A stretch of DNA of 64,000 nt, from positions 274,563-338,562 of the forward strand of contig JAFEBQ010000012.1 of assembly GCA_018242585.1 (NCBI GenBank), read 5' to 3'. Position numbers and translations under genes: made by a program. Below the pieces are notes generated by a model. The model saw only the letters and a program-made list of their open reading frames with translations, did no database searches and was not told the DNA's origin. How positions within the stretch are numbered: the stretch's first letter is position 1; every line of letters begins with the position of its first letter. The DNA is from Planctomycetota bacterium (GTDB taxonomy: Bacteria; Planctomycetota; Planctomycetia; Pirellulales; PNKZ01). Shown here one piece after another: positions 3,507-15,470 of the stretch.

Positions 3507-3650
3507 TTTCACCGCAAAGACGCAAAGTTCGCAAAGGAAATGCCTTGAGAAGATGATTGGATCGCGAGCAGTAGGCTCGATAGTCGGCAACACTCATTTG
3601 GGAATTCCTTTGCCCTCTTCTTTGCGTCCTTTGCGTCTTTGCGGTGAAAA
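3507..3650. repeat. Inverted repeat with tandem-heptamer arms (CGCAAAG word)
   Basis: Left arm 3507-3544 has CGCAAAG at offsets 0, 8 and 17; right arm 3601-3650 is the reverse complement with one additional word copy. It is the same family as 718-885 but with an unrelated interior. It ends about 75 nt before the thioredoxin-like gene. Confidence 0.8.
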
Positions 3651-4622: not shown

Positions 4623-4695
4623 GGGCCGGTAGCTCAGTTGGGAGAGCGCTGCGTTCGCAATGCAGAGGTCGAGGGTTCAACTCCCTTCCGGTCCA
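4623..4695 (+). tRNA. tRNA-Ala (anticodon CGC)
   Basis: A full cloverleaf is visible: acceptor GGGCCGG/CCGGTCC, D stem GCTC/GAGC, anticodon stem CTGCG/TGCAG with loop TTCGCAA (anticodon CGC, reads GCG), T arm GAGGG-TTCAACT-CCCTT, discriminator A. The acceptor stem holds the G3:U70 wobble pair, the alanine identity element. The 3' CCA is not encoded. It has its own promoter upstream and a terminator about 75 nt downstream, so it is a single-tRNA unit. Confidence 0.97.
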
Positions 4696-7431: not shown

Positions 7432-7585
7432 TGGGTGGCACCGATGGCCCGGCCATCGGTGTTGCGCAGCAACAAGAAACTCGATGAACACGCGTAGCCG
7501 AGTGGAAAGTCGCCATTCGTGCCAGACGGCGCCCGAGGTTTCTTGCGGCCTTCGGCCGCCCAGGTGCAAGCACCTGGGCCACCCA
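7432..7585. repeat. Multibranched structured repeat element, copy A
   Basis: Outer arms TGGGTGGC and GCCACCCA enclose successive hairpins: CACCGATGGC/GCCATCGGTG, TTGC/GCAA, a long arm CAAGAAACTCG against CGAGGTTTCTTG capped by a smaller hairpin around AGTGG/CCATT, CGGCC/GGCCG with a TTC loop, and CCCAGGTG/CACCTGGG. It fills the gap between two convergent genes. Copy B at 13311-13467 has the same plan with different stem sequences. It may act as a bidirectional terminator, be a mobile palindrome, or be a structured RNA; orientation is unknown. Confidence 0.75.
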
Positions 7586-13310: not shown

Positions 13311-13467
13311 TGGGTGGCCCCGACAACTTGTTGCCGGGGTTGCGAAGCAACAAGAAACCTCGAGCGCCGGACTGATTGCAGTGGCGACTCGCCACTTGCT
13401 GAAAGCGTCGATCGAGGTTTCTTGCGGGCTGTGCCCGCCCAGGTTGCTTTAGCAACCTGGGCCACCC
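13311..13467. repeat. Multibranched structured repeat element, copy B
   Basis: Outer arms TGGGTGGC/GCCACCC. Inside: CCCCGaCAAC/GTTGcCGGGG, TTGC/GCAA with a GAA loop, CAAGAAACCTCGA against TCGAGGTTTCTTG with an inner GTGGCGA/TCGCCAC hairpin, CGGGC/GCCCG, and CCCAGGTTGC/GCAACCTGGG. It lies 36 nt past recA. The architecture equals that of copy A at 7432-7585. No gene is seen in the rest of the recA to protease gap. Confidence 0.78.
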
Positions 13468-15189: not shown

Positions 15190-15470
15190 GCTTCTCTCTG
15201 GTGGACAAGCCCGCCAGTGGCACCCTTGATGTGGGACAGTGGGCCAACAACCTGCGCCGGCGCAAGAACTTACCTGGTCCGTTGAACCTGACGCTTTGAC
15301 GACGCCCCCTTGGCCGAGTACAACGGAGCAGTCGGCGACACCACGCTCGGCGCGGCCCCGCATGAGGGGCCCCCGCAAAGGGGACCTGTGAATCTGGTCA
15401 GGGGAGAAATCCAGCAGCCATAAACAGTCAGCTTCTTGTGCGGCGGGTCTCTCATTCGCGGCCGCGCCAG
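15190..15470 (+). ncRNA. ffs: Signal recognition particle RNA (large bacterial type)
   Basis: Positions 15396-15419 match the SRP helix 8 (domain IV) motif base for base in spacing: GGTCAGG-GGA-GAAA-TCC-AGCAGCC. In E. coli the same place reads GGTCAGG-TCC-GGAA-GGA-AGCAGCC, so the closing stem covaries and the tetraloop is GAAA. A long-range helix GCCCGCC (15209-15215) with GGCGGGT (about 15443-15449) closes the molecule; a size near 270 nt suggests the long form with an Alu domain. It sits directly upstream of dnaX, the same order as scr-dnaX in Bacillus. Exact ends are estimated. It binds Ffh and targets membrane proteins to the Sec translocon. Confidence 0.78.

Follow-up and report, generated by a model that had tools for sequence, protein, structure and literature searches.

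The window (the whole 64,000-nt stretch of Planctomycetota DNA analysed here) holds two intergenic repeats, copies A and B, that share a multibranched fold and differ in the sequence of its stems, raising the question of what kind of element keeps a structure while letting its letters change. The sequence-only reading described them as a two-copy family and offered two origins, a selected RNA fold or the copying of an element in folded, single-stranded form. Comparison of the sequences across the home genome and related genomes leads us to conclude that A and B are very probably non-autonomous, parasitic miniature mobile elements of the REPIN/MITE type, which a REP-associated tyrosine transposase (RAYT) moves in the form of a folded single strand.

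Copy A (7432-7584, + strand) is a complete type-I element of 153 nt, quasi-palindromic and non-autonomous, and is matched by covariance model R1 at 7433-7584 with 154 bits. It had been given as 7432-7585; the added A at 7585 could pair with T7432. The 5' side of its outer stem, GGGTGG (7433-7438), holds a GTGG tag and pairs with the 3' side, CCACCC (7579-7584), which holds the inverted tag CCAC. Next to the 5' side lie the REP-like hairpin H1 (CACCGATGGC/GCCATCGGTG, 7439-7461), with two-sided changes at 5 of 10 pairs, the hairpin H2 (TTGC-GCA-GCAA, 7462-7472), and a left arm, CAAGAAAC (7473-7480), that pairs with the right arm GTTTCTTG (7538-7545) across a variable core (7481-7537), the position held by the RAYT gene in autonomous units. 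On the right, hairpin H4 (CGGCC/GGCCG, 7546-7558), in which 4 of 5 pairs have two-sided changes, mirrors H2, and the inverted REP-like hairpin H5 (CCCAGGTGC/GCACCTGGG, 7559-7578) mirrors H1.

Copy B (13311-13467, + strand) is likewise complete, at 157 nt, and is matched by R1 at 13312-13467 with 131 bits. Within the outer clamp GGGTGGC/GCCACCC that it shares with A, it carries H1 (CCCCGACAAC..GTTGCCGGGG, 13318-13339), H2 (TTGC-GAA-GCAA, 13340-13350), the left arm CAAGAAAC (13351-13358), the right arm GTTTCTTG (13417-13424), H4 (CGGGC/GCCCG, 13425-13437) and H5 (CCCAGGTTGC/GCAACCTGGG, 13438-13461), and all of the stems named by the sequence-only reading are present in both copies at the places it gave. 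B is a mosaic in which a type-II-like H1 is joined to type-I arms and a type-I right end; over positions 1-48 it shares 96% identity with a type-II-like copy. Both copies are indeed intergenic and lie at gene ends. A is flanked by the end of an 885-aa reading frame without a Pfam match and by a convergent sulfatase gene, and B starts 36 nt past the recA stop codon and is followed by a gene for a trypsin-like/PDZ protease. A and B are the sole members of their family within the window. A different dispersed repeat, CACCGCAAAGACGCAAAG..GCAAAGG with the inverted partner TCTTTGCGTCTTTGCGGT, occurs at 719-878 and 3507-3645 with 92-93% identity between the two places, and looks like a second miniature inverted-repeat family.

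Far from having two members, the family is represented in the window's own genome by at least 106 distinct copies. A DNA search of this genome returned some 50 matches, and a scan with a covariance model built from 36 copies (A2, R1) gave 148 strand-specific matches among the best 150 candidates scored; removal of opposite-strand duplicates left the 106 elements, a lower bound since only those 150 candidates were scored. Some related genomes also contain copies. The common plan comprises two inverted ends, each combining a GT[AG]G tag with two successive hairpins and an arm, and the arms (CAAGAAAC or CAAGAGG) pair with their partners across the variable core. The tag is present in 97 of 106 left ends and, inverted, in 101 of 106 right ends, and this layout of tag and hairpin is that of inverted REP pairs. 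Four subtypes can be told apart by arm and H1: type I, with arm CAAGAAAC and a length of about 153 nt, which includes A and B; type II, with arm CAAGAGG and about 137 nt; a third subtype of 115 nt; and a longer type IV, with GGTTGC. Arms match within an element (37 AAAC/AAAC and 45 AGG/AGG pairs against 1 clear mixed case). The hybrid L014:681-816 (G000:C15) has the type-I left arm CAAGAAAC, the type-II right arm CCTCTTG and a partly broken central stem, which suggests that ends have been exchanged between subtypes. A 209-nt composite type-II element at L030:720-928 (G000:C12), with an extra internal segment resembling a right end, is a nested or recombined copy.

The six-helix structure is beyond chance. 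In 36 copies and over 39 pairs, standard pairs fill 97.9% of cells and 17 of the 39 pairs show two-sided changes. The covariation score is 0.339, compared with 0.149 ± 0.008 for shuffled alignments (0 of 500), and does not exceed 0.089 when the partners are slid; an unconstrained RNAalifold run recovers the identical six helices. Fold energies point the same way (mean RNA-fold z = -6.8 over 44 complete copies); the B strand reaches z = -5.6 / -6.6, and A alone folds more weakly (z = -2.6 / -1.5). The compensating stem changes first seen between A and B are therefore borne out across the family, and further copies with compensated stems exist in abundance. These tests of fold and covariation do not separate RNA from single-stranded DNA, and DNA hairpins recognised as single strands yield covariation equally.

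A link to a transposase comes from RAYT genes that lie inside the same ends. The home genome has ten matches to Y1_Tnp (Pfam). Three of these are RAYT genes that group as a single clade, located at G000:C27, C19 and C22 and with 51-60% identity to the first. Their proteins score 105-111 bits against NCBIfam REP_Tyr_transpos (cutoff 80) and 24-44 bits against the NCBIfam IS200 family, under its cutoff of 55; their best PDB match is the E. coli TnpA-REP structure 4er8 (E 1.9e-7). All of 24 related proteins keep the HUH motif unchanged, and nearly all keep the tyrosine. At L050 the left end reads GGGTAGC-ACCGGTTGC..GCAACCGGT-TCGC..GCGA-CAAGAGGCA and is followed by the open reading frame, after which the right end reads TGCCTCTTG-TGGC..GCCA-ACCGG..CCGGT-GCTACCC. 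L049 has the order of L050 with the arms CAAGAAAC / GTTTCTTG of A and B, and L051 retains a left end with a CGACAAC hairpin and a CAAGAGG arm. Since the RAYT gene sits between the same ends, A and B have a core of roughly 50 nt where these units have the gene. The three units have diverged from one another, and the partner RAYT of type I is unproven because they differ from A and B in the sequence of H1 and H2. At the genes for the other Y1 proteins of this genome that we list as L045-L048, L053 and L054, compound ends were not found. A decayed RAYT fragment with an in-frame stop, L194 (G000:C8:67742-68081), adjoins an element match and is a dead unit.

The association between gene and ends extends to other genomes. 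A scan of named genomes retrieved 52 RAYT relatives in Planctomycetota, Desulfarculales-type bacteria and one verrucomicrobium, and in most of them two-hairpin-plus-arm ends can be seen by eye around the gene. With a strict end-module pattern, RAYT loci of this clade have a left end in 32 of 51 cases, a right end in 32 of 51 and both in 23 of 51, which are low estimates because the pattern misses ends visible by eye, as at L051 and L086. The corresponding figures for RAYTs of other clades are 1/23, 2/23 and 0/23, and the rate in shuffled DNA is 0.075 per 300 nt. In genome G018, element copies are clustered on either side of the RAYT gene. When 24 genomes were compared, the three with a close RAYT were all element-rich, and most of those without one have no elements. 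The exceptions, with elements and no close A1-type RAYT, are 6 of 23 relatives, namely G020 and five genomes of the same family; in these, either the RAYT must have been lost or another RAYT clade must act on the elements.

The ends themselves vary among these genomes. In G020, elements of about 184 nt (e.g., L227 and L235) start with GGTTAGCC and have arms CAGGAAGC; no close RAYT of the A1 clade was found there, and its five more distant RAYTs have none of the listed matches nearby. RAYT units and miniatures at L081, L084, L088, L089, L091 and L233 have a much longer H1/H5 with large internal loops, and their ends are a different subtype. L086 and L092, otherwise 96% identical, differ at the H5 tip by a compensated block (AAATCGAAGATTT and AAACCTTCGGTTT, respectively), which suggests a higher rate of change at hairpin tips than elsewhere in the unit.

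Several observations bear on movement. No target-site duplication was found across 88 complete copies, in which 2-nt matches number 3 against 5.5 expected; Y1 enzymes are expected to leave none. Six same-family relatives have recA followed by the same protease gene, and the element of copy B was not found in any of these six spacers, which do not align with that of the home genome; the relatives belong to other genera, so that the comparison gives the absence of B only and does not resolve the exact junction. In H5_PLA8, two RAYT units of 662 bp, extending from CGCGGGTGGC to GCCACCCGCG, are 96% identical and lie on different contigs with unrelated flanks, and in UBA696 two units are 97% identical over their readable part, one being broken by an N gap. 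As judged from sequence, these near-identical pairs suggest that whole RAYT units can move, and they would speak against a single-copy, non-self-mobile RAYT for this clade.

Of the two origins first proposed for A and B, the folded single-stranded element is thus the one that gains support, through the dispersed copies, the ends shared with Y1/HUH RAYT units, the lack of target duplication and the absence of B from the corresponding site in six relatives. The other origin, a structured non-coding RNA or an RNA regulatory element (terminator, mRNA stabiliser or attenuator) selected for its fold at these loci, we regard as highly unlikely. The strong compensatory change and stable folds would suit it, as would the position of B just past recA and of A between two convergent genes, and REP-type hairpins at such gene-end places are known to affect transcripts. 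Yet position is not conserved, the element following recA in 0 of 6 relatives, and the copies form a dispersed family whose ends follow the plan of transposase units. On the modelled strand G-T wobbles outnumber A-C (24 against 12), as an RNA would lead one to expect, but the count is not decisive because the excess is concentrated largely in two alignment columns; moreover, the element is quasi-symmetric and both of its strands fold. The Rfam 15 covariance models, applied to the window at the gathering score, matched neither A nor B. Their only matches in the window were a tRNA gene (4623-4695) and a bacterial small SRP RNA (15361-15459). A fold selected as RNA at these loci is left without specific support, and we rejected it on the lack of an Rfam match and of a conserved position after recA.

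An RNA-level role acquired later is a different matter, as it would add to the mobile-element explanation instead of opposing it. Elements spread by a RAYT could have been co-opted, with copies such as B after recA acting as terminators or mRNA 3' ends. A and B are both intergenic and at gene ends in the window, and REPs downstream of genes are reported to act at the RNA level (PMC3733652), but we found no conservation of particular insertions and consider co-option rather unlikely. It is exceedingly improbable that the copies are sites of some other single-strand system (integron attC-like or filamentous-phage attP-like) or relics of an unrelated DDE transposon, that is, a classical MITE. In general, such systems have in common folded single-strand sites and inverted terminal repeats; here, however, the ends match those of Y1 RAYT units. 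A DDE MITE usually leaves a target duplication, and a DDE element was rejected on the lack of any in the 88 complete copies.

The mobile element preferred here has much in common with REPINs and BIMEs (PMC3116915), which consist of two inverted REP-like GT[AG]G hairpins around a spacer, measure 100-160 nt, occur in many copies, and are RAYT-linked and non-autonomous. In the 36 aligned copies, H1 and H5 are inverted REP hairpins and the outer stem and arms are paired, and a cognate RAYT flanked by the same REPs is present at L049, L050 and L051. Unlike REPINs, which have one REP hairpin per end, these elements have two hairpins and a pairing arm, a compound variant, and these ends are also found around the RAYT gene, with which they form a single unit. 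REPtrons, in which an HUH/Y1 REP_Tyr_transpos protein is flanked by inverted GT[AG]G hairpins (TnpA-REP; PMC2817692, PMC6006769), resemble the gene-bearing units. REPtrons are described as not transposing as a unit (PMC2817692; PMC6006769), and RAYTs are reported to be single-copy and not self-mobile (PMC3116915, PMC6006769); here, in contrast, the gene is located where the miniatures have their core, and two genomes each contain a pair of units with 96-97% identity.

Other likenesses are partial. IS200/IS605 elements (IS608, ISDra2) and their miniatures share the Y1 transposase, subterminal hairpins, a single-strand mechanism, the lack of target duplication and the coexistence of autonomous and miniature forms; they differ from the present units, which have inverted GT[AG]G compound hairpin ends and a protein under the NCBIfam IS200 cutoff. 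TIRtrons, as described in PMC3733652, are RAYT-like genes with long, partly self-complementary terminal repeats that also form dispersed families; those with double palindromic terminal repeats have in common with our units a RAYT-like gene between terminal repeats. The same paper reports GTAG repeats in Planctomycetes and mentions R. baltica, and some overlap with the double palindromic repeats is possible. In its text and legends we found no description of a plan of six helices in which arms pair across the core and the compound ends bear GT[AG]G tags. REP pairs, RAYTs and double palindromic terminal repeats beside RAYT-like genes are accordingly already known; what is new, as far as the readable text of that source goes, is the compound, arm-locked end common to gene-bearing and gene-less forms, together with the indication of self-mobility.

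A and B each consist of two inverted compound ends around a short core without coding function. We hypothesize that the arms would zip both ends into a six-helix structure of single-stranded DNA, bringing them together with the help of H2 and H4. TnpA-REP cleaves REPs in single-stranded form, and the GTAG tag determines which CT or CA sites it uses (PMC8266576). By analogy, we infer that binding would involve recognition of the tag and H1 on the folded strand, that cutting would fall near the tag, that excision of the folded strand would be followed by reinsertion elsewhere without target duplication, that particular RAYTs would be paired with particular end subtypes, and that movement may continue at present. 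Activity today is uncertain because the copies have diverged. An enzyme that depends more on shape and tag than on the letters of the stems would explain why the stems drift with their pairing kept. Autonomous units carry these ends around a RAYT gene instead of the core. We tentatively extend this proposal to the whole RAYT clade of Planctomycetota and some other phyla, which may be a still-working insertion sequence, a possibility that we place a little short of even: gene and ends would move jointly as a single-stranded unit, and miniatures with a replaced core, A and B among them, would ride along.

REPINs and RAYTs are widely described as domesticated, with a gene that stays put and small repeats that spread. 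The family described here explains a set of structured intergenic repeats of these genomes that could otherwise be mistaken for non-coding RNAs. With gene-bearing and gene-less forms sharing one detailed end architecture, it offers a system for testing the origin of REPINs from insertion sequences and for asking what single-strand transposition gains from a compound, arm-locked end. If the clade is indeed a working insertion sequence, it would represent the self-mobile ancestor type that has been proposed for domesticated REPtrons and REPINs.
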